Of a stretch of 50,545 nucleotides of DNA, positions 18,561-41,099 are shown piece after piece (the stretch's first letter is position 1; each line of letters starts with the position of its first letter). The DNA is from Myxococcota bacterium (GTDB taxonomy: Bacteria; Myxococcota_C; UBA6777). Under the pieces are notes generated by a model that saw nothing but the letters and a program-made list of their open reading frames with translations, was not told where the DNA came from and searched no databases. The position numbers and the translations under genes were made by a program. Location of the stretch: assembly GCA_023150835.1 (NCBI GenBank), contig JAKLKB010000045.1, forward strand, positions 1 to 50,545, written 5' to 3'.

Positions 18561-18670
18561 GTGTACACGAAAGGTAGGAGCGATCTGCTGTAGACGCTTG
18601 AAGAAGTTCTCTCCCAAGGAGCTAGAGCAATCGGTGTACACGAAAGGTAGGAGCGATCTGCTGTAGACGC
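18561..18670 (-). repeat. Two direct copies of a 37-bp unit, 73 bp apart
   Basis: Identical 37-bp units at 18561-18597 and 18634-18670, beginning GTGTACACGAAAGGTAGGAG and ending CTGTAGACGC, with a 36-bp spacer. The second runs directly into repeat C4, whose CTGTAGACGCCC edge it shares. Confidence 0.9.
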
Positions 18671-18748
18671 CCTGTGGTTGGGCAGCCACAGGGGGCTGCC
18701 CTTACATCTACCGCGTACGCCATGAGCGGATTTCGTATAAGTCCCCCG
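18655..18748 (-). repeat. Dispersed repeat family C, copy C4
   Basis: Inverted orientation: TAGACGCCCTGTGGTTGGGC, AGGGGGCTGCCC and ATGAGCGGATTTCGTAT. Part of a 366-bp stretch between the DUF924/FSH1/LRR gene end and the Sel1 gene that contains only repeats and the gene remnant. Confidence 0.6.
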
Positions 18749-21700: not shown

Positions 21701-22471
21701 AGCATCGTTCTGCGCGGCGTCGAAATGGACGCTGACAGGCGATGTTGTGGTGTGGGGCTGAACAGAGCGCATAAATCCATACCTCTTGGTTTGGAGGAAT
21801 TCGGCCTCTTCGGGGGTGGTTTGGCGTCCCAAGAGGGCGTTGCGATGGGGATAACGGCCAAAAGTCGTAAGGATCTCCAGATGTTGCAAAGCAGATTGGT
21901 GCATCCGCTCGAATCGTTGGCGTTGTGGGAGGGGACTGTCGTCGATCAAGCGGGCCTTGAGGGCGACAGCTTGACGGACTCGTTCGATATCTTCGGCGTG
22001 TTCGAGCGCAAAGTAAAAGAACAAACGTTCTGCGGGTGCAACAGCGAGGTCGAAGCCTTGTTGGATCGCGTAGAGGGCGATCTCTTGGGCTTTTGCGTCG
22101 TATCGAAACATCGCCGCATCGCCGCGATGGATGTGGCGTGGAAACTGATCGAGCAGCAGCACCAAGGCTAGGCAACCGTGTGCTGTCGGGCGCAGAGCGT
22201 CTAACGCCCCTGTATCCGCAGCGATCACTCCCTCACCAAACCGCTCTTTGATCTCTGCATCGACCGCTGGGCCGCCACGAAACCACAATGCGCTTGGGTG
22301 CTTGTACGTTTGCTCTTTGGGATCTTGTTCTTCGCCAAACCAGTACCGTAAGACTTGGTCTGCGTACGCCCCCGCAAGATCGTCTGGCAACAAGCGACCC
22401 CATGAATGATTTTTTGTTTTTATGGTGTGTTCCTGAGAAAAATTCAAGAGATGAGACAGAAACGGCAACAC
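18782..22471 (-). CDS. DUF924 - FSH1 serine hydrolase - leucine-rich repeat fusion protein
   Basis: A 1229-residue chimera. Residues about 37-235 match DUF924: LRYWFGEEQDP, then LRPTAHGCLALVLLLDQFPR and HIHRGDAAMFRYD. A low-complexity linker (about 250-310) is made of 11-residue repeats around D-x-T-A-L-S-D. Residues about 347-552 form an FSH1-type serine hydrolase with nucleophile elbow VGFSQGGAL (Ser452), Asp in VGANDILVD and His536 in RGGHFVPD, so the triad is complete. A helical region of unknown kind (about 560-880) follows. The last 300 residues are ribonuclease-inhibitor-type leucine-rich repeats (for example LRHLYLDANGLTARSALVIA). No signal peptide is seen, so it is cytoplasmic. The start is uncertain: GTG at 22471 is listed, but no ATG precedes the first domain and a nearby TTG is possible. 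It probably acts as an esterase with LRR-guided binding. Confidence 0.85.
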   Translation of the reverse strand: MLPFLSHLLNFSQEHTIKTKNHSWGRLLPDDLAGAYADQVLRYWFGEEQDPKEQTYKHPSALWFRGGPAVDAEIKERFGEGVIAADTGALDALRPTAHGCLALVLLLDQFPRHIHRGDAAMFRYDAKAQEIALYAIQQGFDLAVAPAERLFFYFALEHAEDIERVRQAVALKARLIDDSPLPQRQRFERMHQSALQHLEILTTFGRYPHRNALLGRQTTPEEAEFLQTKRYGFMRSVQPHTTTSPVSVHFDAAQNDATALSDATHPDAAQPDDTALSDASQPDTTALSDAVKADTTALSDVAQTDATALSTNNPFDAAFSAIASARSNRAIGLQAQATGTPATMPKKLNILVLHSFRQNARVMRARTRKLRQALEEDATLIFANAPLPYDPTGEVRDAVLAAFGRLQDTEHQRCWWNADESNATYEGIELSFAYIKQMDDLYGPFDGIVGFSQGGALAGLLAAMREELGLSLRFVVCISGFPSRADAHRSLLQPGKIALPSLHIVGANDILVDPTRTHALATCFQDAVVIEHRGGHFVPDRWPVQEIRAFVQKFRTAPQEEAETPTTRAAQRLQQWTWLTSSAQNNQAVALLPVLTDAFAALSSAALRSEDILSLVGQLQQADKAASAARFWVALWLYNAETETPHRTAIEEAFAQIPRVLGWSWLCRLAEENAQNRDATNAAVDQQLQELHRWIVMQFSTQLAADRDLLEQGLAVDSSDPHTLEGLAWPSDCAWFAPKRRNAVDKSCRLACDIAMALWPLPEQGAMMKPWTEEGLQKAKAYRYTRYHRMLRDLRRALDHVSLDFADRQRNQRIQQIYEQSRQRVLLGQDPIPAPILHPAPEPVLPCAREELEPLLDWLREDSPVREVLAFTRGTLLPDGRLDLCKQVVGPEGIGPLLGAMQHSSHVTRLLLGNNIVGDEGARQIAAYIRSGRSKLEGWYIAGNEITPDGLRAVTEAIGEDPKVRHLWLKRNPLGAEGMVHIAALLKTHPALEVLDLLNCGLLDRGIEALEEGWIASRTLRHLYLDANGLTARSALVIARCLAEGPPLHSLFLSCNRLGDEGIRLLAPALAANTSLQRLSFASNRLTAQAAAILAEALCAHPTLLHLDLGYMRGTGALGESGNFLGDEGAEHLAGLLRQNRVLRSVDLLHNDIGQAGLSAICAALRDNHQVIRLQFTQFSKAHNEYTREEIKTLLARNEAAVLDWPSLQETILLPRHLQEIHSVYRTRV
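21541..21745 (-). repeat. 33-bp-type in-frame repeats encoding the DxTALSD linker
   Basis: Six imperfect units inside the fusion gene, visible on the plus strand as repeated TCGGACAATGCTGTCGTATC or GATAACGCCGTAGCATC. They encode the acidic Thr/Ser/Asp linker between the DUF924 and hydrolase domains. Confidence 0.8.
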
Positions 22472-23099
22472 GGCGACGGTCTGTTCTGCCTAATGGCCTT
22501 CTGCTGCGTGCTGTGCTTGTGTGGATTGGGCGGTGGGTGTAGGTGGATGGGGCTTGGAGTACATCGTCTTTGCTCCTTCGGGTTTTGCGCTTTGTTTCGC
22601 GACGGCCTCGCCTTCTTTGGCAAGCGGCCCGCCTGTGCAGCGGTTGGATGCCGCGAAAAAAGACATATGGCCTTCTTTGGCAAGCCACCGCCCTCCCCCT
22701 ACGCAAACCCCCAACGCAAAGTTCATCCACATCTCTGATAGCAACCCCACAAAACACCATCGGGGTAGCTCAAAAAAAACAAAGTGCCTTGTTTATAAAA
22801 TACTGAACATTAGCACATTTATTTATATGCAACAAGCTACGAGATTTTCAGAAAGTGAAAAGTCTTTTGAATTGTTTTTTGCTACCCTCTGACATGGCTT
22901 CTTTGCTCTTGAAGCCTTTGAGCAGACGCAATTAGCGGTCGATTCGGCGTTTTCATCTCGCTCTCGCATGATTTCTTCGCTATCACAGCCTTTCAACGGA
23001 GGTTCTGTGTGCAAAGAAGCGTACAATCGATTATTGTAAAAAGGCAACAAAATTAATTGCGTATCATGTTTGTGGTTTTTTGACGATGGAGAACACTCT
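22472..23099. other. Intergenic transition into the AT-rich island
   Basis: Between the fusion gene and the first caspase gene, transcribed away from each other. A weak small reading frame occupies 22490-22732 on the minus strand. Composition becomes clearly AT-rich from about 22760. TGGCCTTCTTTGGCAAGC occurs twice (about 22612 and 22670). Promoters for both flanking genes should lie here, but I cannot assign -10/-35 elements with confidence. Confidence 0.4.
22490..22732 (-). CDS. Possible small hypothetical protein upstream of the fusion gene
   Basis: An 80-residue frame with ATG at 22732 (and a second ATG at 22726), ending 18 bp before the GTG proposed for the fusion gene. It has no recognisable domain; it contains two LAKEG segments and a Pro/Thr/Gln-rich end. 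The close spacing would fit an operon leader, but low complexity makes chance equally likely. Confidence 0.22.
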   Translation of the reverse strand: MWMNFALGVCVGGGRWLAKEGHMSFFAASNRCTGGPLAKEGEAVAKQSAKPEGAKTMYSKPHPPTPTAQSTQAQHAAEGH

Positions 23100-24785
23100 G
23101 TGAGAAAGATAGTTTTGATAACGTTTATGCTGTGCTTTGTAGAGATGTGGCCTGCCTATCAGGCTCATGCAAAGCGCTACGCTTTGATCATCGGCGTGTC
23201 AACCTACCGCTACCAACCGAACAAAAACAACCTACCAAGCCCTCGTAAAGATGCGATCCGCTTCCAATCGTTGATGAACCGTTTAGGATTCAAAACAAAG
23301 ACACTCTTGGACAGCGAAGCCACGCCCGAAAACATACGTGAACACCTCAAATGGCTCCAACGAATGGGCCAAAATCCTAAACATACACTTGTTTTCTATT
23401 ATTCTGGGCACGGAGCGCAGATCCCCGACACCAACGGAGACGAACCCGACGGAAAAGATGAAACATTGTTTGCTTATGGAGCAGACCCAAAAGATCCAAA
23501 GCAGCACATCGTCGACGACGAACTTGAGGCATTCACACAAAGCGTGCGTGCAAAAATATTTTATGTGTTGGATAGCTGCCACTCTGGAACAGCCAACAAA
23601 TCCCTTCGTGGCGGAAAAAGTAAAAGACTTTACATCTCTGATCAAAACGAAAAAGAACAAGCCGTCGCGATAAAAATAATGACAGCAAAAAAAGGTAGCT
23701 TTTTTAATCGAAAAGGACGAAAGTCCATCTACGGAACAAACGAACTGCTGCTTTCTGCAGCCCGCAGCAACGAACCCGCACAAGATATGGGAAATGGTAG
23801 TTTGCTGACCAACGCGTTGCTGTACGTGCTAGAAAATCAAGGGACAAACATAACATTTCGCCAAATGTACGAGTCCATCAACAAATATGTAGCAGAAGTC
23901 TCCTTAAACATGGAAAAAAAACGATGCAAAGAAGACCATTCTTGCCGATCGCAAATCGAGCAGGTCATCGAGCAGAAAAAACGAGAGGGCTTCATGCTGC
24001 AACACCCCCAAATGCAAGGACTGCGACGATTAAAAGACTCCCCAGTGTTTTTTCAACCGACCGAATCCGCTCCCGAACACAGGACGGGGCTCAGCTCGTA
24101 TCAAAACCTCGACGTCAAAATCCGAGGATTCCGCGAACAAGCCAAAAAAGCTCTCGTGCATATATTGAAAAATTGGGGAGCCAATCCTTCCGACGAGAAA
24201 GCCGACACGCTAATCGAGCACGATGGCAAAGAACTAAGAGTCCTATTCCAAGGGCATCTTTTTGTTTCTCTGCCCGCCACCCAAAAGCATGCAGCGAAGT
24301 TAATGCCTTCTCTAAAACGTGTCATCACAACCCTTTATTGGTTGAAGAACTGGAAACAACTGGGTCCAAATAGTACAGAAATGCGCGTTGAATTGTTGGC
24401 TCGACAAACGAACGCAGGTTGGCAAAAAGCGATCGACGACACCGTTTACATCAAAACCAAAATCCGTATCCGCATCCTATTCCCAGAACACCCTTGCTTT
24501 TTTACCCTTGCTGTTTTGTCTAACCAAGGAACGATGGATATTCTTTTTCCACAAAAAAATCAATCCAATTATATGTCAGGAAAAAGAGAATTTTTATTCC
24601 CTTCCTCAGGGTACAGTCTTCGTGTTCACCCTCCCCAAGGTATGGGTATGATCATGGCTTTCTGTTCGATGAACAACGATCGCCTGATTACGATAAGAAA
24701 GCGCATCCGCAAAAAAGAACTTCTGCCACCTATACCCTTCCCCCCAGGCATCAAGCACGCCCTTTTTTCATATTTCGTAAAATAA
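23100..24785 (+). CDS. Exported caspase-family protease (C14) with DUF4384-like C-terminus
   Basis: 561 residues from the GTG at 23100, chosen because GGAG lies eight bases upstream and it starts a clear signal peptide (RKIVLITFMLCFVEMW, cleavage near QAHA). The caspase fold begins at YALIIGVSTY. The catalytic dyad is intact: His104 in YYSGHGAQ and Cys160 in VLDSCHSGTA. Between them is the acidic loop DTNGDEPDGKDETL found in bacterial orthocaspases and metacaspase-like enzymes. The C-terminal ~150 residues contain a beta-rich stretch (RIRILFPEHPCFFTLAVLSN) resembling DUF4384. It opens a five- or six-gene plus-strand cluster; the next gene starts 27 bp downstream. Export suggests action in the periplasm or outside the cell rather than in cytoplasmic programmed death. 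Confidence 0.9.
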   Translation: MRKIVLITFMLCFVEMWPAYQAHAKRYALIIGVSTYRYQPNKNNLPSPRKDAIRFQSLMNRLGFKTKTLLDSEATPENIREHLKWLQRMGQNPKHTLVFYYSGHGAQIPDTNGDEPDGKDETLFAYGADPKDPKQHIVDDELEAFTQSVRAKIFYVLDSCHSGTANKSLRGGKSKRLYISDQNEKEQAVAIKIMTAKKGSFFNRKGRKSIYGTNELLLSAARSNEPAQDMGNGSLLTNALLYVLENQGTNITFRQMYESINKYVAEVSLNMEKKRCKEDHSCRSQIEQVIEQKKREGFMLQHPQMQGLRRLKDSPVFFQPTESAPEHRTGLSSYQNLDVKIRGFREQAKKALVHILKNWGANPSDEKADTLIEHDGKELRVLFQGHLFVSLPATQKHAAKLMPSLKRVITTLYWLKNWKQLGPNSTEMRVELLARQTNAGWQKAIDDTVYIKTKIRIRILFPEHPCFFTLAVLSNQGTMDILFPQKNQSNYMSGKREFLFPSSGYSLRVHPPQGMGMIMAFCSMNNDRLITIRKRIRKKELLPPIPFPPGIKHALFSYFVK

Positions 24786-24812
24786 CCCAACGTCAAAAGG
24801 AGCAGATCGATC

Positions 24813-25343
24813 ATGCATATAAAAAAACGTTTCTTGTTCTTAATCATTGGTTTCATTTTCTTTTCTCTGCCCTCCGCTGCCCAATCAAAAATCGTGATGA
24901 ATGGCTTTTTTTACTTCCTTTTGGTTGATGAGCATGGTCAGGATAAAGCTGTTCCGATGAGCTATGCTCTGAAACACGGACAACTCTACAAGATCCTCGT
25001 CAAACCTTGGCAAAAAACGTACTTTCTAGCTTACCAAATTTCACCAAAAGAGATCCAAAGAATTTCCGTATCTTATCGCAAAGACTACGGCGCATTTCAA
25101 TTTCCCGCAGGAGACGCTTACCTCCGCTATAACGCAATCCTATCCACAAACCGTATTTTGTGGATAGGATTGCCAAAAGATCCAACGAGCAGCCAAAAAA
25201 AGACCCCACCGCCGCCCCAACCTCTCAAAGAAGAGGTCACCCCAGCTCAAACGCTGGAAGCTCCAGCAGGAGCAGGAGAATTTAGACGTATGACTTGGCC
25301 TCTCTCGTGGGTGTTTGATTTCCTACAATTAACCAAAAAATGA
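24813..25343 (+). CDS. Small exported DUF4384-like protein
   Basis: 176 residues starting at the ATG at 24813 after AAAGGAG (a somewhat long spacing). The signal peptide is HIKKRFLFLIIGFIFFSLP with cleavage near SAAQ. The mature part is a single small beta-rich domain with FPAGDAYLRYNAIL, reminiscent of the 'FRPPxGxEHLSF' end of the two clear DUF4384 proteins of this island, but divergent. A Pro-rich stretch and hydrophobic tail follow. It lies between caspase 1 and the DUF4384 lipoprotein in one probable transcript. The coding sequence contains a perfect 17-bp inverted repeat (25134-25173). Function unknown; inferred accessory of the caspase system. Confidence 0.72.
   Translation: MHIKKRFLFLIIGFIFFSLPSAAQSKIVMNGFFYFLLVDEHGQDKAVPMSYALKHGQLYKILVKPWQKTYFLAYQISPKEIQRISVSYRKDYGAFQFPAGDAYLRYNAILSTNRILWIGLPKDPTSSQKKTPPPPQPLKEEVTPAQTLEAPAGAGEFRRMTWPLSWVFDFLQLTKK
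25134..25173 (+). other. Perfect 17-bp inverted repeat inside a coding sequence
   Basis: Left arm GCAATCCTATCCACAAA (25134-25150), six-base loop CCGTAT, right arm TTTGTGGATAGGATTGC (25157-25173). The arms are exactly complementary and would form a strong hairpin in DNA or mRNA. There is no T-run, so it is not a standard terminator. It encodes ordinary-looking protein, NAILSTNRILWIGLPK. Confidence 0.9.
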
Positions 25344-25414
25344 ATCGTCTGGTGAAAAGAAGCTTCATGCTTTCAGGCGAACCACCGCGCTTCTACACAA
25401 CGAAAGGAGTCTTC

Positions 25415-26158
25415 ATGAGAAAACATGATTTTTGTTTCGCAAGGTTCGTCTTCGGAATATGCTTTGCCGTCGCGCTGAGTGGCTGTTTTGTACAAGTCAA
25501 AGATTTGTTTTCTTCACAAAATAAAACAGTCCTTCGCTTAACAACGCTGCATTATCGCCATAAAAACGATCCATCCCCAAAGCGCCTCCCTTTGTCGCGT
25601 GCTGTTCAACAACGCTACCAAACAACAGAAGCATTGCGGTTTGAGTTCACCGCTAACAAGCAAGGATTCTTATACGTTCTCCATCGCGATCCAAAAGGAC
25701 AATTTCACGCCCTTTACCCGGCAACCGAAGGAAACGAAGCAGACAGCCGAATCAACGCATACGAAACGTTTCGTTTTCCCAAAAAAGCCAAATTTGTATT
25801 CCGCCCGCCAACAGGTGACGAACACCTCTCCTTTGTGTTCGCATCCTCTTCTCTTTCTTTGGAGGATGCACGTGCTTACGCAGATCGTTGGATGCCTTAT
25901 CTCCCCCGTCATACAGCTATCTTGACCGAACCAACTTCCCCACGCTGCCCTGCGGAATATATGTACTTTAGCAATTGTCAAATTTTGTTTAATAAAAAAT
26001 TAAACAAAACTTTGGTGCTTACTCCTGATCAAGAACGAGATTATCAAGTCACAAGCGAATCAGATTTTTTCTCCTTACCTCAAAATATCCCTGAAAACGA
26101 GTACTTGAGCTATACGTCTGTTTCTTTTCGTTTGTCTCACGAACCTATCCGTCAATAG
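25415..26158 (+). CDS. DUF4384 lipoprotein
   Basis: 247 residues from the ATG at 25415, preceded by GAAAGGAG; an upstream ATG at 25340 overlaps the previous stop but would bury the signal. Lipobox VALSGC gives Cys24 as lipidation site. The DUF4384 core is clear: LRFEFTANKQGFLYVLHRDP, then LYPATEGNEADSRINAYETF and FRPPTGDEHLSFVFASS. DUF4384 is a small beta domain often attached to bacterial kinases or proteases. This protein is a close paralogue in layout of the minus-strand DUF4384 protein at 31644-32405. It lies 41 bp upstream of the second caspase gene, in the same probable operon. An 11-bp perfect hairpin occurs near its 3' end. Confidence 0.85.
   Translation: MRKHDFCFARFVFGICFAVALSGCFVQVKDLFSSQNKTVLRLTTLHYRHKNDPSPKRLPLSRAVQQRYQTTEALRFEFTANKQGFLYVLHRDPKGQFHALYPATEGNEADSRINAYETFRFPKKAKFVFRPPTGDEHLSFVFASSSLSLEDARAYADRWMPYLPRHTAILTEPTSPRCPAEYMYFSNCQILFNKKLNKTLVLTPDQERDYQVTSESDFFSLPQNIPENEYLSYTSVSFRLSHEPIRQ
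25983..26009 (+). other. Perfect 11-bp inverted repeat inside the DUF4384 lipoprotein gene
   Basis: Arms TTTTGTTTAAT and ATTAAACAAAA with a five-A loop. It is AT-only apart from one G/C pair and encodes part of LFNKKLNKT. It is the second intragenic hairpin in neighbouring genes of this island. Confidence 0.85.
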
Positions 26159-26199
26159 GATTCGGTTTGTACTGATCTTCACCAAAGAGGAGTTCATCG

Positions 26200-27693
26200 A
26201 TGAATGTTCGATTTTTTCTACTTTTCAGCTTGCTTTTTTTACTCACGCATTCGCCCAATCCTGCCAAAGCCGCTGGGTATGCCGTGTTGGTCGGTGTGGG
26301 TGACTACAAAATGGAAGACATCCGAGATCTTCCAAGCCCTCCTTCTGATGTTGAAAAAATAAAGAAAATGCTAATCAATGTTTATAAATTTCCTGAAGCC
26401 AATATCCGTGCCTTGGTGGATCGAGACGCGACCAAAGCCAACATCGCACGTGCATTGAGGTGGCTCGCGCAAGCCTCAAAAGAAGGAGATTCTTCCGTTT
26501 TTTACTTTTCAGGGCATGGCTCCCGCGTCAAGGATCTCAACGGAGACGAAGAAGACGGTTTTGATGAAACCATCGTTCCTTATGATGCGACCTTCGCACC
26601 ACAATCCCATGTCATCGACGACGAAATTCAAGCATGGCTCTATACAGTTCGCTCAAAAATTACCATCATTTTCGATAGTTGTCATAGCGGAACAGCGTAT
26701 AAAAGCATGAGAAGAAAAGTCGAACGTTTCTCAGGTTTAAAAAGTGGAGAAAAGCTGTCCATCAAATACTGGGAAAACCGAGTCATCTCTTCAACCAAAC
26801 GCGTCGGTCGTTATAGCGATGGGTTTCGCGCTTTGCGTGTTCAAGCACGCCCCAAAGATATACCGCCAGATTGGAACCGATTGTGGGGCATCGACCCAAC
26901 AAAAGACAGAAAACAGATGCCAGAGATGTCTTTCCTTGCGGCCGCTCTCCCTGAACAATACGCGATCGACGCTGGAGGCTCAATCGGCAGTGTATTTACG
27001 CATTTCTTAACGCGATTCGCCGCGAAAAATCCCGCAGCAAACCCAGAGCAGCTCATCCAATCCATCAATAGCGCGATGCCAGAACGCTTCGCGAAGATGA
27101 TGAAGCCCAACACAGAAGGGCAAACCAAAGTCCCTTTTCTCTTTCAGTCTTCCAACAACATCGAACAACACAACCTTTTAGCGGAGCAACGTGTTTGTGA
27201 AGGTACGTTCTGCGTTGTTGCGCAGATCCAAGACAAAAACGGACAAGTGAGAAATCATTTCGCAAAAGACTCCGAGATCCGCATCGTTTTCAAATTGAGC
27301 CAGCCCGGCTATTTGGTGGTGCTGAACCGAGATGCAAAAAAGCAAATGACTTTACTTTATCCCGACACTTACTACGATACTCTCAGCAAACAAAAACCGA
27401 ATGATGTCTATTTCTACGAAGCACAAAAAGATCACCTCTTGCCTCCTGGAGGCGATCAGTCTGACGGATTTATCAAAGTGAGCGGAGAACCCGGCGATAT
27501 CGAAACAGTAGAGATCCTTGCCGCCCCTCAACAAAAATCCCTACAAAAATTGATTCAAATGAAATCCATGAATTCAGATGGTCGCAAAAGCATAACGCAG
27601 CAGCTTGTATCTCAACACCTCCAAAAGCTAATGGTGCAAAAGCGAAACAATGGCGTCTATATCCGCCTCGCTTTTAAAACAACAGCACCTTGA
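26200..27693 (+). CDS. Exported caspase-family protease with C-terminal DUF4384 domain
   Basis: 497 residues; ATG at 26200 after AAAGAGGAG. Signal peptide RFFLLFSLLFLLTHSPNP with cleavage near AKAA. Caspase fold from YAVLVGVGDY; intact dyad His106 (FYFSGHGSRV) and Cys161 (IIFDSCHSGTA), with acidic loop DLNGDEEDGFDETIVPYD and the HVIDDEIQAW strand also present in caspase 1. After about residue 340 comes a DUF4384 domain (FKLSQPGYLVVLNRDAKKQM, LLYPDTYYD). This shows directly that the protease and the DUF4384 domain work together, since elsewhere in the cluster DUF4384 is encoded as a separate protein. Family members usually cleave after Arg or Lys; specificity is not certain here. Confidence 0.93.
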   Translation: MNVRFFLLFSLLFLLTHSPNPAKAAGYAVLVGVGDYKMEDIRDLPSPPSDVEKIKKMLINVYKFPEANIRALVDRDATKANIARALRWLAQASKEGDSSVFYFSGHGSRVKDLNGDEEDGFDETIVPYDATFAPQSHVIDDEIQAWLYTVRSKITIIFDSCHSGTAYKSMRRKVERFSGLKSGEKLSIKYWENRVISSTKRVGRYSDGFRALRVQARPKDIPPDWNRLWGIDPTKDRKQMPEMSFLAAALPEQYAIDAGGSIGSVFTHFLTRFAAKNPAANPEQLIQSINSAMPERFAKMMKPNTEGQTKVPFLFQSSNNIEQHNLLAEQRVCEGTFCVVAQIQDKNGQVRNHFAKDSEIRIVFKLSQPGYLVVLNRDAKKQMTLLYPDTYYDTLSKQKPNDVYFYEAQKDHLLPPGGDQSDGFIKVSGEPGDIETVEILAAPQQKSLQKLIQMKSMNSDGRKSITQQLVSQHLQKLMVQKRNNGVYIRLAFKTTAP

Positions 27694-27768
27694 TGTTGTA
27701 AAATTGACCGAAATACCCCTCAAGCCGCGCCGCTCAGCGCCTTTCCTCTTGATTGCTCCGATGACAGG

Positions 27769-28704
27769 ATGACCCAAATGAATCAAACTTTTTTTTATTC
27801 TGCCAAAATTTTTCTTTTTACACTCGTTTACTCATCAAATAGCTTCGCAATTGATTGTAAAAAAGAGCTTAATAAATTCAAGAAAACATCTGGGCTTTCA
27901 AAAAACCAAATCTATGCTTCCTTTTTGAAACTATCTCATTTTTTACTCAAAAACGAAGCATGCCGTGACTATCCATCCGCCATGCAAGTGGCGCACTGGG
28001 CAAAAGAATTGAACGACGTCGACACCGAATTAAATTTTTTGACCATGGCGCGTCGGTATGCCCCTTCCACCCCCACCAAGCCCCCTCCGTCCAAAAAATA
28101 CGATGGCATTCGTGGTCTAATGCCTCCCAAAAAACAAGAAAAACCCGACCCTTTTACTGAAAGCCAACAGAAAGTGCAACAAAAAATCCAGCGATGGTTA
28201 TCACAAAGGTTTCCTCCGCAGGTGGCTGCTTACCGAGAAATGAGATTGGTTGTGGTACGTCGCGTTTTAAAACAAGCCAAAACCCGCACTGTCGGTTGCT
28301 CTCCGAAAAAGAAGATGCTTCAACAGATCTTGTCGCAACAGAAAACACAACAAAACCTTCTTTTGCCCATGAAGATATTGTTTAAGCTGAACAAAGCTCA
28401 TATCGATGAAAATAGCCGCACTCTTTTGGAGATCCTAGCCAAAGAGCTTCGATCGATCCTTCCGCTCTCTGAGTGCATCCTCGTTCTTGGACATACAGAC
28501 CCTTCTGGAATACCCGCTTACAACGATTGGCTGTCAACACGACGCGCACAACGCGTTATTCAGTTTTTTCACCAACACCAACTCTCTTCGGGTTTCTTTT
28601 TGGCGCATGGAATGGGTTCTTCTATGCCAAAGAAAAGCAGCTCAAACAAAGTGGATCGATTCGCCAGTCGTCGTGTTGAATTCGCTGTCTTTCTCAAACG
28701 ATAG
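27769..28704 (+). CDS. Exported protein with OmpA-like peptidoglycan-binding domain
   Basis: 311 residues; ATG 27769 or the in-frame ATG at 27778, which has AGGATG at better spacing. The signal peptide FFYSAKIFLFTLVYSSNSF is cut near FA. The middle region (25-190) is helical and of unknown family, with Cys residues. The C-terminal ~115 residues match the OmpA C-terminal domain: LFKLNKAHIDENSRTLLEIL, VLGHTDPSG and YNDWLSTRRAQRVIQF, with the Asp and Arg that hold meso-diaminopimelate of peptidoglycan. It ties the caspase cluster to the cell wall and could anchor or localise it. It lies 75 bp after the second caspase gene and 189 bp before the pseudocaspase gene. Confidence 0.82.
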   Translation: MTQMNQTFFYSAKIFLFTLVYSSNSFAIDCKKELNKFKKTSGLSKNQIYASFLKLSHFLLKNEACRDYPSAMQVAHWAKELNDVDTELNFLTMARRYAPSTPTKPPPSKKYDGIRGLMPPKKQEKPDPFTESQQKVQQKIQRWLSQRFPPQVAAYREMRLVVVRRVLKQAKTRTVGCSPKKKMLQQILSQQKTQQNLLLPMKILFKLNKAHIDENSRTLLEILAKELRSILPLSECILVLGHTDPSGIPAYNDWLSTRRAQRVIQFFHQHQLSSGFFLAHGMGSSMPKKSSSNKVDRFASRRVEFAVFLKR

Positions 28705-28893
28705 CCTTGATAGTACGTGAGGAGATGTACAGTACATTTACACATCGATTTTGATGTACCGCAAACCGAGTCAAAAATGGATCAAATTAGACACGAAACA
28801 ACTCTCATTTTTCAAGCTTTATCAGTCCATCTATCCGAGCGGCTTTCGCGGTCGGATCTTCGTTTCGCTTTCCCCCTGTCAGGAGATTGATCG

Positions 28894-30810
28894 ATGCGAC
28901 GCTTTTATACTATGCGCTGGGCGTTTTGGTGCCTGCTTGTTGGTTGGGGAGGAATTCAAAAAAGCCATTCATCCAAAACGGTCCCCTCCAAAACGTATGC
29001 TTTTTTAGTTGGAGTGGACGTTTATAAAAACGCGTGGAAAGCGTTAGATTACGCAGTAGATGATATGGAAGAATTACGTGATTCTCTACGAAAAGATGGA
29101 CGTATCGATCAAGATAATATCGTTTTTCTAATGAATCATTCTGCGACCCGAGAAAATGTTCTACAATCATTTGACACGCTATGCCGTCGATTGCAGCCTA
29201 CAGATCTGTTGTTGTTTGCCTTCGCAGGTCACGCTTTGATGGATGAGCACGCAGGGTATCTCGTCTTACACGACACGGCACTACAAAACTTGCGCGCTTC
29301 TAGCTTGCGAAAAAGTGATCTTGTTTGCTCTCGTGTCAAAAAACGAGTCCTGTTTTTAGACACGTTTCGCTCGAAAAAAAAGAGAAGAGTACCTCTTTGG
29401 CGCGATGGCGTCCATGCTTCGCTCTTCGCAGAGACCAACCAAGTGGTCCTAGCACCCAGCCTATCCGAGCAAGAGCGGGGAAAACCTATCGGGGCGAGTT
29501 TTCGGCCCTTTATCTTCCATATCACCAAAGGGTTACGTGGAGAGGCCGATATGAACCGCGACGGCGTAGTCAGCTTGCTTGAGCTATGGGGACACATCAC
29601 CGCGCAGATCAAAGAAGCCACAGGATTGTCGGCAGAAGAGCAACGTCTTGCCACGTTGGCGGGTGAGTGGTCCGAATGGTTTCCACTAACTTACCCGAAA
29701 ACGTTGTTGCTTTTGGGGCGTATTCCTTCTCATCCACAAAGATCAAAAACAAATTGGTTGGCCGTCAAAAGCATCCCATCCGGAGCAAGTGTTTACGTAA
29801 ACGATAAGTTTTTTGGAAAAACTCCTTTTTTTCAAAAGATTTCACACGGAAAACAAAATATTATACTTCAAAAAGAAGGTTTTCACGCGTGGAAGAAAAC
29901 AATTTTTACATCGTCGAATGTAGAAAATATTCGATTGGTTCAGTTAAAAAAAATGGGAGAACCATCCCCGCAAGAAAACCCTACCAATACCGCCGAGAAC
30001 GAAAGGCCGGAGGTTGGCCGAGGCCGCCCAGCAGGCTTCCGCAAACCCTTGAACGCTTGGCCTAGCGTTTCTATCCGATGGATTCCACCAGGCACATTCC
30101 GAATGGGTTCCCCAACCCACGAAGAAGGCCGCTATAAAAACGAAGGTCCACCCCGAGAGATCCGAATCACTCACGGTTTTTGGATGTGGGAAACAGAAGT
30201 AACGCAAAGCCAGTTCATTGCCTTGATGGGCTATAATCCCTCGTTTTTCAAGCGTTGTGGCCTAAAATGCCCTGTGGAACGAGTCACATGGCACAACGCT
30301 GCGATGTTTGCAAATCGTGTTTCTTTACTAGAAAAAAGAGAAACTTGTTTTCGATGCAAAAACAATCGTTGCCGCTTAAAATCTCCTTTTCTTGGAAGCG
30401 GCGTTTATTCTCGTTGCAAGGGGTGGCGATTGCCGACTGAATCAGAATGGGAATACGCAGCAAGAGCAGGGCAAACCACTTCACGCTACGCAGAAAACTG
30501 GAATTCTATCGCGTGGTGCAAAGAAAACAGCCAAAACAAAACCTCTCCTGTGGGGGCAAAGCGACCGAACCCTTGGGGATTACACGATATGTTGGGGAAT
30601 GTTTGGGAGTGGACATTGGACGCTTGGATACCTTATCGAGAGCGAACGCTTTCTGTTGACCCGCTGTACGTAAGCGGTAGCAAGTACGTGTCACGCGGAG
30701 GCGCATGGTCTCATTCCAAACGCGCCGCACGCTTCGCCACGCGAGCGCGTGGCAGCGGCCACGGCTACGGTTGGTTTTTAGGCTTCCGTCTCGTGCGCTC
30801 TGCTCCATAA
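28894..30810 (+). CDS. Pseudocaspase - PEGA - FGE-like (C-type-lectin fold) fusion protein
   Basis: 638 residues; ATG at 28894 after CAGGAG. A short hydrophobic N-terminus (MRWAFWCLLVGWGG) suggests export. Residues about 33-265 are a caspase fold: YAFLVGVDVYKNAWKALDYA and LLLFAFAGHAL (His113), but the cysteine segment reads FLDTFRSKK, with Phe158 where DSCHSG proteins have Cys, so it cannot be an active caspase. GEADMNRDGVVSLLELW matches the region after the core in active relatives. A PEGA-like domain (about 289-350) follows. Residues about 393-636 are an FGE/SUMF1-type domain (WIPPGTFRMGS, WRLPTESEWEYAARAG, LGNVWEWTLDAW, SRGGAWSHSKRAARFATRAR). The two catalytic cysteines of true FGE, which lie just after the RGG segment, are absent. 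I infer a binding or scaffold protein. Confidence 0.88.
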   Translation: MRRFYTMRWAFWCLLVGWGGIQKSHSSKTVPSKTYAFLVGVDVYKNAWKALDYAVDDMEELRDSLRKDGRIDQDNIVFLMNHSATRENVLQSFDTLCRRLQPTDLLLFAFAGHALMDEHAGYLVLHDTALQNLRASSLRKSDLVCSRVKKRVLFLDTFRSKKKRRVPLWRDGVHASLFAETNQVVLAPSLSEQERGKPIGASFRPFIFHITKGLRGEADMNRDGVVSLLELWGHITAQIKEATGLSAEEQRLATLAGEWSEWFPLTYPKTLLLLGRIPSHPQRSKTNWLAVKSIPSGASVYVNDKFFGKTPFFQKISHGKQNIILQKEGFHAWKKTIFTSSNVENIRLVQLKKMGEPSPQENPTNTAENERPEVGRGRPAGFRKPLNAWPSVSIRWIPPGTFRMGSPTHEEGRYKNEGPPREIRITHGFWMWETEVTQSQFIALMGYNPSFFKRCGLKCPVERVTWHNAAMFANRVSLLEKRETCFRCKNNRCRLKSPFLGSGVYSRCKGWRLPTESEWEYAARAGQTTSRYAENWNSIAWCKENSQNKTSPVGAKRPNPWGLHDMLGNVWEWTLDAWIPYRERTLSVDPLYVSGSKYVSRGGAWSHSKRAARFATRARGSGHGYGWFLGFRLVRSAP

Positions 30811-31077
30811 AACATCTAATCGATAAAAGATATAATTCGTAGTCCAATTTCTCCAAGATCCATCCCCTCCTATCCCCCCCCACAGTCTGTTCAAAAAAGA
30901 ATATTTTTGCGGATACTCTCCTCAAAGGTGTCTAGAAAAAGGTTTGTTCTTTTGATAGCAGAGGTCGATTGAAAAGGTGAGCAGTCGAAGCTTGAAGATC
31001 ACGGATGCTGCGCCTTCTTTTCATCACCAGTTCAATCGTCCCGTTCTATGAGCAGCGACCGAGTTGGGTTTTGCTGG

Positions 31078-31225
31078 ATGGGGCGCTGCCCCAAACTCCG
31101 CAAGGGAGCGCGGCTCCCTTGACCCCGTACGGATGGGACGAGCAGCGTTTTCAAAACCAACAGATCTACCGCTCGAACGCTTGCGAACACGGCTTTTTTG
31201 GGCTAGGGTTCGCTCCGATATGTGT
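31078..31225 (+). repeat. Dispersed repeat family A, copy A4
   Basis: GGGGCGCTGCCCC, AAGGGAGCGCGGCTCCC, a core with two changes (CCTTGACCCCGTACGGATGG), TTTTCAAAACC and CGAACACGGCTTTTTTG. Confidence 0.7.
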
Positions 31226-31260
31226 ACACTTCCAAAAGATATCAATGTGTTAGACACCCT

Positions 31261-31385
31261 CTTATACGAGATCCGCCCGTTGTGTGATCGTAAGGATGCA
31301 GGAGCAGACCCTGTGCCTTCCCAATAATAGGGCGTCTACGCACAATCCTTTGTGTACACATCACTCGAAGATCGTATGAAATGGT
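31261..31385 (+). repeat. Dispersed repeat family C, copy C5
   Basis: TATACGAGATCCGCCCGTTG, TGTGATCGTAAGGATGCAGG, CCAATAATAGGGCGTCTACG and CACTCGAAGATCGTATG. Same orientation and extent as C2. Confidence 0.65.
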
Positions 31386-31562
31386 GAAAAGACGAAAAAA
31401 GAAAGAAAGGTAAGAGTGATCGATAAAGAAAGAAGATGATGCGGTACGTCGATATCGGGCAAACAAAGAGTGGGGTCCCCCGCTCGTGGCAGCCCGAGAA
31501 TGGAACGGCCACAGAAGAGCCGCTGTCGGCACACTTCTCTTCAGTTTCAGATAATCGATGAA

Positions 31563-31660
31563 CGAAGATGATGATTACTGGTGAGCGAAGATGATGATTA
31601 CTGGTGAGCGAAGATGATGATTACTGGTGAGCGAAGATGATGATTACTGGTGAGCGAAGA
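31563..31660 (-). repeat. 23-bp tandem repeat, four copies, containing a gene's 3' end
   Basis: Units begin at 31563, 31586, 31609 and 31632 with a partial fifth at 31655; each reads GCGAAGATGATGATTACTGG plus TGA on the plus strand. On the minus strand every unit contains TTCGCTCACCAGTAA, the last codons and stop of the DUF4384 gene, whose real stop (31646-31644) is in the fourth unit. The array thus copies the gene end downstream three times. 23 is not a multiple of three. Confidence 0.95.
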
Positions 31661-32405
31661 AGAAACGAACAAACAAGACACTGACTTGTTGTGGCTTGAG
31701 ATTTTGCCTTGGAAGCACGATGTAGTCGGCATCTTGCGCAGGTTCGTGATCGGCTTCCATCACCAAGGTTTTCCCGTGGCCTTTTGCGTTCATGATGATC
31801 TGAACCGCCAAGTTTGTATTTTCCTTTGGGCCTTGGTTGGTTTCTACGTTTCGGATGATATCGCTTCGGCGTTGCTCGCTTACTGCAGGAAAACCATAAT
31901 CATTGGCACAGGAAAAAAGCTGTTCTTTAAATAGTTTTTTATCCGTCACAACAAAAGAAAGATGTTCAAGTCCTCGAGGAGGACGAAACGTGAATTTCGC
32001 ACCGTGAGGGAAATGGAAAGCTTTCATTGCTTTGATGCGATTTTTTTGGTTCTTTTTGTTGGGAGTGTTGGCGGCAGGATAAAGGACAGACATATCTCCC
32101 TTCGGATCCCGATGCAAAACATAGAGATACCCGCTGTGATTGCTTGTCACTTCAAAAGTCACCTGCTCTCCACTTTTGTAATAGCGCCGGGTTGCTACAG
32201 AAAGCGGCATTTTGGTCTTGGAAACTGTTCCGTCGGGATTGTTTGTGTACACCACCACTTTGATTTCCAAGCCTTTTTTTCGTTTGGTTTGATCAGGCTC
32301 CAACACCAACGTTTTGAGGGAAGGTTTGGCCAAGGCTTGTCCTGTCAGAGCGACGCAGAAAACGGTCATCCATCCGACGAACATGGAGAAAACATACTTT
32401 TTCAT
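31644..32405 (-). CDS. Exported DUF4384 protein
   Basis: 253 residues from the ATG at 32405, which follows AAAGAGGTG and starts a signal peptide (KKYVFSMFVGWMTVFCVAL, cleavage near QALA). No lipobox Cys is seen, unlike its relative at 25415. The core matches: VTFEVTSNHSGYLYVLHRDP, then VLYPAANTPNKK and FRPPRGLEHLSFVVTDK. It and the plus-strand lipoprotein share the same motif order and a similar VLxxDxExxxDY segment, so they are paralogues. It directly follows the minus-strand caspase gene (125-bp gap), repeating the caspase-then-DUF4384 order of the plus-strand arm. Its 3' end is part of the 23-bp tandem array. Confidence 0.85.
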   Translation of the reverse strand: MKKYVFSMFVGWMTVFCVALTGQALAKPSLKTLVLEPDQTKRKKGLEIKVVVYTNNPDGTVSKTKMPLSVATRRYYKSGEQVTFEVTSNHSGYLYVLHRDPKGDMSVLYPAANTPNKKNQKNRIKAMKAFHFPHGAKFTFRPPRGLEHLSFVVTDKKLFKEQLFSCANDYGFPAVSEQRRSDIIRNVETNQGPKENTNLAVQIIMNAKGHGKTLVMEADHEPAQDADYIVLPRQNLKPQQVSVLFVRFFFAHQ

Positions 32406-32530
32406 GAGATCACCTCTTTGCTGAGTAAAGGATGTCCTTTTCGAACATCCGACATTGCGATGAAAACACCGATCGTTGAAGCCGTTGGTTCCGTTTTGAG
32501 TTGTTTTTTTCATGGTCGTATAATTTTCTT

Positions 32531-34045
32531 CTACATTCCTCCCTCAAAAAGCAATGATGATTTCTCTTTTTGATGGACGCCTTGCGCCATGCTTGGCCGC
32601 TCCAAAAAAGATCGAGACGCGCTGCCTTGTGCACGACTTCGTGCTGGATTCGTAAAGTACAAGATCAAGCCTGTGACAACCAACACGCCCCCCACCGCAT
32701 ACAGAGCGTAAGCCGCGTTGCTCGCTGTATTGATTGTGCTAAATTGGTTTCCAAAAACCCCTGTAGCTGCCATGATATGAACTGTTGCTCCAACCACAAC
32801 GATCCCCCCCCCCAAGCCCATCGCTGCGTGAGGCCATTTCCCAAAATCAACCGAACCCTCAAAATCAAAATCGATCCCTTGGGAGTCGTCTTCCGAGAGC
32901 GCAACGTATTTTTCTTTTTTAACATTACCACCAATTCCTACGATACGATACCGTCCCGCAGGAAGACGCACTTCTTGCCGCCGAACTCCCTTGTAGCTTG
33001 CAAAGCTTTCGTATCGACCATTCTTTTTTTCGCGGTACACCTCGATCATCGCATCGTCTTTGTTTGAGGTCAGATTGATCGACGCCTGCCGAAGTGCCGC
33101 ACCTCCGGGAAAAGAAAGCGGGACGTTTCCAACAATCGTCCCGTGAGTCACCACAGTTTGCTCATGCCCTTTGTGACGCCGAGCAAGCTCCGAAACACGC
33201 GTGCCGAGATAAGCTTGTAACTCTTGCACCGTCACAACACCGTCTTTCGGCATTTTATCCGCTTTTCCTTTCAATGCTTCGATCAGTGCGTACGTAAACG
33301 CGCCATGCCCCAGCTTGGGTATCTCTACGCTGTACTGCTCTTGTGTCGAAGAAGCGATGGTCACGCGTCCTCTTCCCGTCAAATTCAGGCTTTTTAGGTC
33401 AATGCCTTTGCTTCCCCCTCGATATCCGTCTCTATTTTTTTCTTCTTTTTCATCTCTCATTTTTTTCAATATTTTATCATTCAAAGTATTTCTAAAATCT
33501 TTTTTTTCTGTAAATTTTGCAGAGTCCGCCCCGCTGTTGCAAGCGTCGATCAACAAAGTCACCGTGATCGAAGAGTCTATTCTCGGAGGGCTAACCCAAA
33601 GCCGAAGTTCTTCAAGATCGATCCCCTGCTCTAATTTTAGCTCTCCATCGTTTCGACCGAACGTTGACTCGTACGTCACCCAATAAGAGACGCGCTTTGC
33701 CGCCCAGCCATGCCCAGAAAAGTAGATCACCACGCTATCACCAGCTTTTGCAACAGAAGGCAGCCATGTAAATACCGCCGCTTTGATTTTGGCTTCTGTA
33801 GCCTCGCTGTTGATTAACATCCTGATGTTTTCTTTTTTGACTTTGCCTTCGTTTGTGAGAGCAGAGTGCAACGCTTTGGTATCCGCTACTGCGTAGCGCA
33901 GATCAGGGATATACTCGTTGTTTTTGTAATCATCGATCCCGATCAATACAGCGTACACGCTGGCTGTTGTTTGAGCATACGCAGCAGTTGCTTGAGAAAA
34001 CAAGCAAAGCATCAGAAAGCACAATGTATGGCAGATCTTATTCAT
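32531..34045 (-). CDS. Exported caspase-family protease with two C-terminal membrane helices
   Basis: 504 residues; ATG at 34045 with GAAAGG upstream. Signal peptide KICHTLCFLMLCLFSQ with cleavage near AYAQ. Caspase fold from YAVLIGIDDY; dyad His112 (IYFSGHGWAA) and Cys169 (LLIDACNSGAD). It lacks the NGDEPDG loop of caspases 1 and 2 and has a charged insertion after the Cys (about 178-215), so it belongs to another subtype, with the KDGVVTVQELQAYL segment common after caspase cores. A small beta domain with LPAGRYRIVGIGG (about 320-400) leads to two hydrophobic helices (MGLGGGIVVVGATVHIMAA and AYALYAVGGVLVVTGLILY), so the protease is held at the membrane. First gene of the minus-strand arm. 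Confidence 0.92.
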   Translation of the reverse strand: MNKICHTLCFLMLCLFSQATAAYAQTTASVYAVLIGIDDYKNNEYIPDLRYAVADTKALHSALTNEGKVKKENIRMLINSEATEAKIKAAVFTWLPSVAKAGDSVVIYFSGHGWAAKRVSYWVTYESTFGRNDGELKLEQGIDLEELRLWVSPPRIDSSITVTLLIDACNSGADSAKFTEKKDFRNTLNDKILKKMRDEKEEKNRDGYRGGSKGIDLKSLNLTGRGRVTIASSTQEQYSVEIPKLGHGAFTYALIEALKGKADKMPKDGVVTVQELQAYLGTRVSELARRHKGHEQTVVTHGTIVGNVPLSFPGGAALRQASINLTSNKDDAMIEVYREKKNGRYESFASYKGVRRQEVRLPAGRYRIVGIGGNVKKEKYVALSEDDSQGIDFDFEGSVDFGKWPHAAMGLGGGIVVVGATVHIMAATGVFGNQFSTINTASNAAYALYAVGGVLVVTGLILYFTNPARSRAQGSASRSFLERPSMAQGVHQKEKSSLLFEGGM

Positions 34046-34193
34046 TTTTTTACCTTTCCAAGAAGCTTATTTGTTGTGTATCTACGCATCAGTCTTTGTC
34101 GGCACAGGCCGATCAAAGCAGTGAAGCACAAGACATCGAAACATCCGAGCGATTCGAGGCTGGATTCGCCGCCTTTTCAATCGACCTCCACCG

Positions 34194-37100
34194 TTATTGG
34201 CAAATTCCGTTGACACAGCTTTGTCCGCTACCGCAAGAACGCCCACAAGATCCGCAATTCAGGTTGTTGGTTTGGATATCGACACAGGTTGCCAGTCCGG
34301 GGCAAGGCGTCGAATTTGTCGTCGAACACGGGTTGGGCAAGAACCACAAAAAAGTAGCGCCTCGTTGTCCGCCTGTTTCGTAAATTCGCCCGGGAATATT
34401 TGAAAACACACCATTCGCATAAAAGCTGCCTAGCGCGTACATATTGCCTTGGCTGTCACTATCCACTCTGTAAATCTCGTCGCGCACTCCTTGGGCGTTG
34501 AGAGTCAAAGCGCCACCTCGAACTGTTTCTGCTCGCACAATTTTTCCAGCAGGATCAAGTTGAAGGAAGAAAGGATCTGCACCGTTGGCGTCAGGAACAG
34601 ATACCCCCAGATTGATTTTTCCGACATAGGCTCCCCCAGCATAAAGGCCATTTTGAGGAGCAGGAAAAAGAGAGTACGCGATCTCATCGCCTTCTTGGGC
34701 TGGAGGGGTATAACACCACTGACGAGTGAGGTTCGATAGCGAAAATTGACACACAAACAAGTCCGTTTGGGCCGTATGAGAAGGAAGGCTCGTTAGCTGA
34801 CCCGTAAAATTTCCACTCACAAATAGAGCAGCTCCCTGCAAAAGAGTTCCGTAGGTGTTAATGACCGTGCTCGCATTCGTACTGAACTGTGGAGAGATAT
34901 CATGAAGCGATTGCATCACAAGATTCTTGTCAAATTTAGCGACAAACACACCACGCTGAAGGGAAGACGTGATTTTTTTACTTCCATCAGAATCAGACAT
35001 ACTGTCTCCTTGATGGAACAGACCGATAGCAAATAAATTATCGCTTTGATCGATCTTGAGATGCTGGATGCCGCCCCCTGTTTCTTTGGGCTGCCATACC
35101 TTCACGACACTTCCTTGGTTGTTGATCTTCGCAAGATACGTTCTTCCCCCCAGGGCCAAGAGCGAAGAACCTGTTGCCCCTGTAAACGTGGCGTCGCCAT
35201 TCGATCGCGCCCCCCAAACGAAGATCTCGTGCTGGCTATTTACGACAAATCCTCTGGCATATATCGCTTCGGCAGCATCGGGATTTTTTGCATGAAGCCA
35301 AACGTTGGTGGTGTTGCCTGTTGCCATATCGAGGGACGCGATAACGAGACCACGGTTGCCAGCGGAGTAGGTCTTGCTCTGGAGCACAAAGTCGCCACGG
35401 TATAAGAAAAAAATGTAGAGTGACTGTTTATTGGGACCCCATCCAAGCGTACACTCAAAGAGAGAGGTCGTCGCAGCCCATTGTTTTACCCACAGCATCT
35501 TTCTATTTTTGTCTAATTTCACGACAAGACAAGCTGTACCGGTTGGATCGTTTGCGTTTCCAAATGAGAAGGTCTGATTTTCGACTTGAACAGAGCCATG
35601 AAAGCGCGTGGATATATAGAAGTGATCGGATGAATCGATGAGCATGGTGGGAACGATGGCGCTACCCGCTTGGGTGGGTGGTTCTTTGATGGTGTACACC
35701 CACGGACATCCTTCATCGATTTGTCCGTTGCAATTGTTATCCAGATTGTCCTGACAGATTTCTTTTGTTTCTTTGCATTTGCAAGATCCGTTATCGCATT
35801 TTTCGAGCGTCAAATCGCATTTGTTGCCGCAAGCTCCGCAATGTTGGATATCCGTCTGAATTTCTTTGCAACTGCTTCCACAAGCGAGCTGCGTGCTTGG
35901 GCAGCTTATTTTGCAGACACCCTCGCTGCACAGGGGTTGTCCCGCTGGGCAAACATTCCCACAGCTACCGCAATGTTTGTCGTTGGATCGAGTGTCCACG
36001 CAACTTCCCGAACATTCAGTTTGCCCTGCGAGCGGGCATTGACAAAGCCCCCCGCGACAAGTCTGATCTTGGCGGCAAGAAACACCGCAGCCACCACAAT
36101 GAGTTAGGCTTTCTTGAGCATTGACACAAGTCCCGCTACAGGCCAGATAACCCGACGGACACAAACAGACGCCTTCTTGGCATTTGCTCCCGAACGGGCA
36201 TTTTTGACTGCATTGACCGCAATGATCGGGATCTTTGCTTACATTTTTGCACGAGCCACCACACTCGACCTCCCCCAAACCACATTGACAAAGCCCCGCA
36301 CGACAGACCTGTTCTTGGCGACAAGCAACACCACACGCTCCGCAATTGGTGACGCTGTCCTGGATGCTTGCACAAACACCACTACAGGAAAGAAACCCAT
36401 TGTCGCACTGACATTCACTGTTTTTGCAATTGCTATTTGCTCCGCATTGCTTACCACATTGGCCGCAGTTGGCTGGGTCGGCTACCGTATTTTTACAAGA
36501 TCCATCGCAATCTTTTTGTCCGGGAGGGCATTGACATTCACCGTTGTTGCAGCTTTGGTCGGAGCGGCAAACCTTACCGCAAGCTCCGCAGTGTTCACGT
36601 CTGTTTTGTGTGTCGACGCACGAACCACCACAATTTTCTTCGCCCACTTTACAAGCACATTGGCCCTCCAAGCATTGGAGTCCTTTTGTTTGGTCGCAGG
36701 CGTTGTTGCAATCTCCGCAGTGCTGGGGATTGTCTCGGATATTGACGCAAGTGTCGCCGCAGTACTTTTGTCCCGGATCGCAACTGCAAGCTCCTTCGAT
36801 GCACTTTTGCCCTGTAAGGCAGACTTTGCCACATTCACCGCAGTGGTTTGCATCTTTTCGCAAGTTTGTACACGAACTGCCGCATTGGGTGGGAGTCTCT
36901 GGCTTTTTGTCGCACTCAAGGTTCGGGAGCCAGTTGCCGCCCGTACAAACCTCACCCCCCCGCGCCAAGGGGCGATCACCGCCCTGTTCGTTGTCGATCA
37001 GACCATCGCAGTCGTCATCTTGCCCGTTGCAAACCTCGGCTTTTCCATTTTCGCAGGGATAACAAACAAGAGCGGAACCCGTCGAGACGTTGACGCAGAA

Positions 37101-37394: not shown

Positions 37395-37527
37395 TTGAAA
37401 CCTCGGCCTATTTGGGGGGGTTACGTTTCCGTAGCAACGAAGAAACGCACCCTCCTTAATACCTTAGCGGCTTCTTGTTGAAGGCGTTTTTCAGAAAGTG
37501 AAAAACTGAGAGAGAACGTCGGCATCG

Positions 37528-39333: not shown

Positions 39334-39412
39334 ACTGCTTTCCTCGATTGATGGACGCGTGACGATGCGAGCGATGAACCAACGCAAAACTGTTAGGGTC
39401 CGAGGCATGGGT

Positions 39413-39601
39413 AAAGTTGTTTGAAATAATAATCGCTCACTTCTTGCTTTCTAGCCTAAATCAGCAGGTTCGAGTCCCGCACTGACAAAGTTGTTTGAAA
39501 TAATAATCGCTTACTTCTTGCTCTCTAGCCCAAATCAGCATCCTCGAGGTGAACATTGACAAAGTTGTTTGAAAAAATAATCGCTTACTTCTTGCTTTCT
39601 C
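39413..39601 (-). repeat. 74-bp tandem repeat, 2.5 copies, copying the 3' end of a Cys-rich gene
   Basis: Units begin AAAGTTGTTTGAAA at 39413, 39487 and 39561 (exact 74-bp period); the last is partial (about 41 bp). The third overlaps the end of the gene at 39535-41004, and the stop lies in the second. On the minus strand each copy still encodes KQEVSDYxFKQL followed by a different tail: CQCSPRGC in the gene, CQCGTRTC and YPCLG in the copies. 74 is not a multiple of three and the copies lie behind stops. Confidence 0.92.
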
Positions 39602-41004: not shown

Positions 41005-41099
41005 AGGATACTCCTCGTTCGTGGTTCAATCGTCTTCATCGATATTTTCTTATGAAAAGAGGCATCGGATGATTTTTATTTTTCGACAAAGCAGCGTGG

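Follow-up and report, generated by a model that had tools for sequence, protein, structure and literature searches.

Gene content of the island

The window analysed here is the entire 50.5-kb contig JAKLKB010000045.1 of a Myxococcota bacterium, whose parent genome comprises 7.56 Mb. Within it, an island of eight consecutive genes (23070 to 34045) encodes putatively exported caspase homologs together with proteins carrying the DUF4384 domain, and the relationship between these two families is the subject of this work. On the forward strand, caspase 1 (c1, 23070-24785) combines an export signal, a Peptidase_C14 domain with the His-Cys dyad (Pfam E-value 2.5e-24) and a C-terminal DUF4384 domain (4.9e-7). 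It is followed by a 176 amino acid exported protein of no known family with a signal-like N-terminus (24813-25343) and by a lipoprotein-like DUF4384 protein (g3, 25340-26158; 2.7e-10) with an LSG-C lipobox and no further membrane helix by hydropathy. Caspase 2 (c2, 26200-27693) has the same layout as c1, with an export signal, a dyad-bearing C14 domain (1.1e-24) and a C-terminal DUF4384 domain (2.9e-7). The forward-strand genes end with an exported protein carrying a C-terminal OmpA-type domain (27769-28704; 1.4e-11) and with caspase 3 (c3, 28894-30810), an exported pseudo-caspase in which a C14 domain (7.2e-6) is joined to PEGA (2e-10) and FGE-sulfatase (1.7e-41) domains. The reverse strand encodes caspase 4 (c4, 32531-34045), with an export signal and a dyad-bearing C14 domain (7.6e-15), and an exported soluble DUF4384 protein (g7, 31644-32513; 2.4e-14). 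The gaps of 27, -4, 41, 75 and 189 bases on the forward strand and of 17 bases between c4 and g7 amount to an operon-like spacing.

All four caspases announced by the first-pass annotation exceed the curated Peptidase_C14 cut-off (PF00656, 21.4 bits), with 86.7, 87.8, 26.3 and 55.7 bits for c1 to c4. The SGH and D[SA]C motifs of c1 (SGH/DSC), c2 and c4 align with the reference dyad. In c3, the catalytic Cys is replaced by Phe (DTF replacing D-x-C), which is the only such case in an alignment of 153 caspases. An Asp two residues before the catalytic Cys fits a basic P1 residue in metacaspases; c1, c2 and c4 have such an Asp, and their sequences are consistent with cleavage after Arg or Lys. Two C-terminal membrane helices are predicted for c4, with hydropathy peaks near residues 407-432 and 443-465. 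A hydrophobic export-type segment opens all eight island proteins, in agreement with the export signals proposed before, where these calls are hydropathy readings of the N-termini and not the output of a trained signal-peptide predictor.

Three stand-alone DUF4384 or DUF4384-like proteins had been proposed, of which g3 and g7 (37 % identity to each other) stand. The 176 amino acid protein was rejected as a third, as it reached 0.9 bits in the maximum-sensitivity mode, and no homolog of it was found across the phylum. Likewise, the fusion of DUF4384 to c2 is real and is shared by c1. The order of a caspase gene followed by a DUF4384 gene, described for both arms, holds for c4 and g7, and for c1 and g3 only with the gene for the 176 amino acid protein in between; g3 also lies upstream of c2. 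The remaining announced member, the OmpA-domain protein, matches PF00691 with 45 bits (cut-off 27.2 bits) and carries the TD...N..LS..RA motif. This motif is intact in the form GHTD...LSTRRAQ, read from the sequence as GHTDPSGIPAYNDWLSTRRAQ, and the protein is by family and motif a predicted OmpA-like peptidoglycan-binding protein.

A diverged relative of the island was found on a 7.8-kb contig of another genus (G002:C97). It holds a c2-like fusion of caspase and DUF4384 (36-39 % identity over more than 450 residues, with residues 25-482 of c2 at 39 %), a caspase related to c3 (30 % identity), a protein of the FGE-sulfatase type, an OmpA-domain protein (36 % identity over 123 residues) and the beginning of a further caspase. 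Therefore, the gene combination is not confined to one genome and is conserved beyond it, though diverged and rearranged.

Pairing of caspases and DUF4384 across genomes

Co-occurrence in other genomes, which the first-pass annotation had suggested as a check, was clearly found. In the five genomes of the GTDB phylum of the source, 32 of the 34 DUF4384 matches adjoin a caspase gene, compared to about 0.5 expected by chance (62 C14 matches in 42.6 Mb, with 5 kb on each side of a caspase gene). The association is not a chance effect, and it recurs beyond the phylum. The source genome encodes 11 caspases, and two relatives encode around 20.

The other DUF4384 genes of the source genome do not encode soluble exported proteins. 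Here, the encoded membrane proteins begin with an anti-sigma-like part, and the domain makes up their C-terminal half. A zf-HC2 domain lies in the N-terminal part of one of them and is also carried by some of the anti-sigma factors overall; another anti-sigma-like protein of this genome matches an NCBIfam anti-sigma model below its cut-off. A gene for an extracytoplasmic function (ECF) sigma factor precedes these genes, and an exported caspase gene follows or is divergent. The commonest arrangement in the phylum is accordingly an ECF sigma factor, a transmembrane anti-sigma factor ending in DUF4384 and an exported caspase. At two loci (L025, 7649-11395; L081, 5479-8893), the caspase gene is divergent from the pair of sigma factor and DUF4384 genes.

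A retrieval from named genomes by caspase motifs and similarity alone returned 80 loci. Of the caspases outside the family, 52 had 2 kb or more of upstream sequence, and 46 of these showed the full order of sigma factor, DUF4384 protein and caspase. This trio occurs in Spirochaetota (including Treponema ruminis), Fibrobacterota, Myxococcota (including Nannocystis) and one acidobacterial metagenome-assembled genome (MAG); two more loci, labelled Gammaproteobacteria and Klebsiella pneumoniae, are MAG records that may be misassigned. The Pfam DUF4384 match is weak in several distant anti-sigma factors (E = 0.001 in Treponema ruminis) and was undetected in two of those tested, so that the assignment there rests on a local profile.

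Both partners appear to reach the same compartment. A hydrophobic segment located before the domain (mean 12-residue hydropathy of at least 1.9) was present in 59/72 and 75/82 caspases and in 56/57 and 71/71 DUF4384 proteins, where counts here and below are given for two sets. Only 7/52 and 4/74 sigma factors have such a segment. Caspase and DUF4384 are therefore predicted to share the space outside the cytoplasm. In these genomes, DUF4384 is usually found as the predicted extracytoplasmic C-terminus of an ECF anti-sigma factor. This makes sigma-factor signalling the likely primary context, and not a self-contained system for prey killing or wall lysis. The earlier picture of an isolated exported caspase system thus keeps its export and its pairing and gains a wider signalling context in related genomes.

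Of the 153 aligned caspases, 152 retain the His-Cys dyad, which indicates that proteolysis is under selection. An apparent loss of catalytic residues in the sigma-linked clade was rejected as an artefact of an over-strict pattern, since the alignment shows His and Cys intact except in c3. In a quick tree, most of the sigma-linked caspases form a single supported clade, and a smaller second group of them is placed elsewhere; c1/c2 and c4 fall among relatives of their own, most of which are not sigma-linked, and the placement of c3 is unsure. A subclade of mostly sigma-linked caspases (L103, L116, L126, L127, L128 and relatives) has ATC-type residues replacing D-x-C, which suggests a different P1 specificity.

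A loop characteristic of EF-hand calcium sites, D-x-[DNS]-x-[DNS]-x-x-[ILVF]-x-x-x-E, occurs in 50/72 and 71/82 caspases, including c3, compared to about 1 % of other open reading frames (ORFs). In the AlphaFold model of a sigma-linked caspase (predicted local distance difference test score, pLDDT, 84), a signal helix leads into a caspase core, which is followed by a small beta domain and, at the C-terminus, by eight long strands. The core matches caspase-7 and -8 with a Z-score of 21.9, while fold searches retrieved this core only and found no library match for the strands. A C-terminal Phe is present in 23/72 and 26/82 caspases compared to 3.6 % of other ORFs, and together with the eight modelled strands it supports the reading of a putative outer-membrane barrel.

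The link between DUF4384 and caspases takes three forms, namely fusion (c1, c2 and the relative in the other genus), adjacency without a sigma factor (g3, g7) and the sigma operon. As the predicted compartment is shared, the adjacency holds in varied arrangements and fusions occur, the simplest reading is that caspase and DUF4384 touch, and DUF4384 would best be understood as an extracytoplasmic partner or substrate of exported caspases. We estimate a probability of about 0.45 that the exported caspase docks on DUF4384 and that the island is a sigma-less envelope caspase system built on the same partnership. In the trio, DUF4384 would be the extracytoplasmic end of the membrane anti-sigma factor, on which the caspase, probably Arg/Lys-specific and possibly calcium-dependent, would dock. 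When triggered, it would cut DUF4384 or the juxtamembrane segment, and the sigma factor would be freed by regulated proteolysis with the caspase acting at site 1. This is suggested by the fact that a protease possibly able to cut the anti-sigma factor is encoded beside it.

The sigma operon could equally make the caspase an output rather than the trigger. This is the main rival, and we regard it as unlikely. Here, the ECF sigma factor and the DUF4384 anti-sigma factor would switch on the caspase gene, and the exported caspase would be an effector of envelope remodelling, of lysis of self or neighbours, or of prey digestion, with the DUF4384 proteins of the window protecting the producer. ECF operons commonly contain target genes, and the export of the caspases, their conserved dyad and the many paralogues per genome fit an effector. 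Extracellular or fratricidal roles have also been proposed for prokaryotic metacaspases (PMC3501461). However, an effector role leaves unexplained both the fusion of DUF4384 to caspases and the near-invariant pairing of DUF4384-type anti-sigma factors with these caspases.

The window itself contains a relative of this module without a sigma factor, and not a member of it. The sigma factor hidden Markov model had no match anywhere in the window, the DUF4384 proteins there lack both the cytoplasmic and the membrane portion of an anti-sigma factor, and the caspases are secreted proteins, fusions with DUF4384 or anchored in the membrane. With the sigma factor and membrane parts absent, DUF4384 is proposed to dock or control the caspases in the envelope, most likely as the docking and control unit of a proteolytic system located there, be it as substrate, inhibitor or scaffold. 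The OmpA-domain protein may serve as its wall anchor, and the FGE-sulfatase pseudo-caspase c3 as a non-catalytic, ligand-binding or regulatory member.

Alternatively, DUF4384 could be a dedicated antitoxin-like silencer that holds exported caspases inactive until a signal removes it, with no cleavage involved. Stand-alone exported DUF4384 genes adjoin caspases in the window, the C-terminal fusions could be autoinhibitory, and the DUF4384 gene lies directly upstream of the caspase gene in the trio. Nevertheless, we consider such a silencer improbable, since the trio couples DUF4384 to an anti-sigma module, which implies that information is passed to the cytoplasm; the lack of an inhibitor-like structural match is weak evidence in the same direction.

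Several points weigh against docking of the caspase on DUF4384 as the common principle. The proposed contact is inferred from gene arrangement and predicted location. Its transfer from the trio to the island is indirect, since the window has no sigma gene and c1, c2 and c4 lie outside the main sigma-linked clade; in addition, c1 and c2 do not have the EF-hand-type loop. DUF4384 is also present in genomes with no C14 match (G013, G016, G023, G029, G031), and the 'dedicated' adaptor of the first-pass annotation is therefore unsupported. Finally, the DUF4384 model (g7) is a beta-sandwich of weak confidence (pLDDT 62), and neither sequence nor fold searches found a specific relative of the domain. 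A more far-reaching version of the docking reading is correspondingly more tentative, and on balance we doubt it. In this version, exported caspases would be the site-1 proteases of a widespread envelope-to-transcription pathway, possibly calcium-dependent and partly anchored by outer-membrane barrels, DUF4384 would be the cleaved anti-sigma sensor, and the island would be an accessory sigma-less offshoot that uses the same recognition for envelope proteolysis.

The AT-rich segment and its surroundings

The island lies in an AT-rich segment that extends further than the 23100 to 34045 described earlier, from 22712 to 42131. At about 22.7 kb, the GC content drops from 55-58 % to 42-50 %, and by about 42.1 kb it has risen again to 56-60 %. 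The AT-rich character of the island genes holds for both GC (43-48 % compared to 54-57 % in most left-flank genes) and GC at third codon positions (GC3, 0.41-0.49 compared to about 0.53-0.65). In a congeneric genome (G001), matches to the left flank (80-94 % identity) stop at base 22711, and matches to the right flank (91-94 %) begin at base 42132. Nothing syntenic to 22712-42131 was found beside either flank in this genome, which is 86 % complete, and the unit of about 19.4 kb is accessory for this reason. A simple insertion between the two flanks is not proven; at this completeness and with the flanks on different, rearranged contigs, a clean empty site is not demonstrated. No tRNA was found in the window.

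An AT-rich accessory segment and weak PADLOC matches to caspase profiles would suit an anti-phage or abortive-infection island with caspase executioners. However, all components carry export signals, and no nuclease, gasdermin, CRISPR, CHAT, NACHT or EACC partner was found among the scanned ORFs. For gasdermin, CRISPR components such as Cas7-11 and TPR-CHAT proteins, this agrees with the first-pass annotation and covers the main window ORFs (Pfam) and the island proteins (PADLOC), although not every window ORF was scanned. The EACC1-associated caspase model NF047832, which requires 140 bits, was matched with only 47-74 bits. With no supporting partner among the ORFs scanned, the defence reading was dropped as very improbable.

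Further along the AT-rich segment, two large Cys-rich proteins with STIG1-type repeats are encoded (34194-37394, 39535-41004). These surface genes were rejected as island-specific neighbours, since STIG1 has 224 matches across the source genome and their presence beside the island says little; 14 control genomes had none. Immediately at the right border, a gene (42125-44866) encodes a VWA domain together with seven MopE-type metal-binding repeats. On the left, a 1229 amino acid protein (18782-22471) combines DUF924, an FSH1-type serine hydrolase and leucine-rich repeats, and is mostly missing at the matching place in the congeneric genome.

The window also contains dispersed intergenic repeat families of about 100-300 bases, with dozens of related copies in the congeneric genome. 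They were located at 2992-3378, 7002-7295, 8476-8595, 15602-15716, 18561-18741, 31078-31379, 47588-47726, 48041-48165 and 49137-49261. Two copies at 48.0 and 49.1 kb, 94 % identical to each other, form an inverted pair around a gene (48192-49139) that lies in the opposite orientation in the congeneric genome, beside the left flank.

Relation to known caspase and sigma factor systems

Caspases of bacteria have mostly been considered as cytoplasmic proteases of cell death or defence. A large family of exported caspases with an almost invariant dyad and operon links to membrane anti-sigma factors points to a use in envelope signalling and not only in cell death, and the pairing suggests a function of DUF4384 that can be tested. 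Should a single pair be confirmed, it would account for numerous unannotated genes in Myxococcota, Spirochaetota and Fibrobacterota, and possibly also for the sigma-linked metacaspases of Myxococcus xanthus noted in 2012.

In that study, Asplund-Samuelsson et al. (PMC3501461) reported sigma-70 factors in metacaspase operons of deltaproteobacteria and Fibrobacter, with Myxococcus xanthus, Anaeromyxobacter, Haliangium, Sorangium, Ralstonia and Fibrobacter as the organisms concerned. The study also noted potential signal peptides, FGE-sulfatase fusions and, in 14 operons, OmpA, while its main text mentions neither an anti-sigma factor nor a DUF. What the present analysis adds to these operons is the DUF4384 gene in the middle, the topology at the membrane, the barrel-like C-terminus and an island without a sigma factor. 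Fusions of C14 and DUF4384 are known from cyanobacterial and alphaproteobacterial orthocaspases (PMC8283722, PMC7475262, PMC6426788) and resemble c1 and c2. In the parts of these papers considered, DUF4384 is treated as an accessory domain, and stand-alone partners or an anti-sigma context are not described. An anti-sigma role of DUF4384 was not found in the literature searched, as far as it was covered, which excluded the ECF classification, and an earlier annotation is possible.

The proposed mechanism would resemble the DegS-RseA-RpoE system of E. coli, in which a membrane anti-sigma factor is cleaved on its extracytoplasmic side by a protease of the periplasm. That protease, DegS, belongs to the PDZ serine proteases, whereas here the protease would be a caspase and the cleavage is proposed. 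ECF sigma genes near CHAT proteins are on record in the literature, and caspase genes beside ECF sigma factor genes are known from EACC2/caspase systems with DUF1822 tetratricopeptide repeat (TPR) proteins (PMC8195603). These systems are defined by EACC/TRADD-N and TPR components, and the sections of that source considered describe neither DUF4384 nor export. A precedent for a caspase-like protease that frees a sigma factor is the Csx29-Csx30-CASP-sigma system of type III-E CRISPR, where the protein cleaved is an inhibitor of an ECF-type sigma factor (PMC10028731). That system is cytoplasmic, RNA-guided and of the TPR-CHAT type, whereas in the trio the caspase is predicted to be exported and the inhibitor would be a membrane anti-sigma factor with DUF4384.

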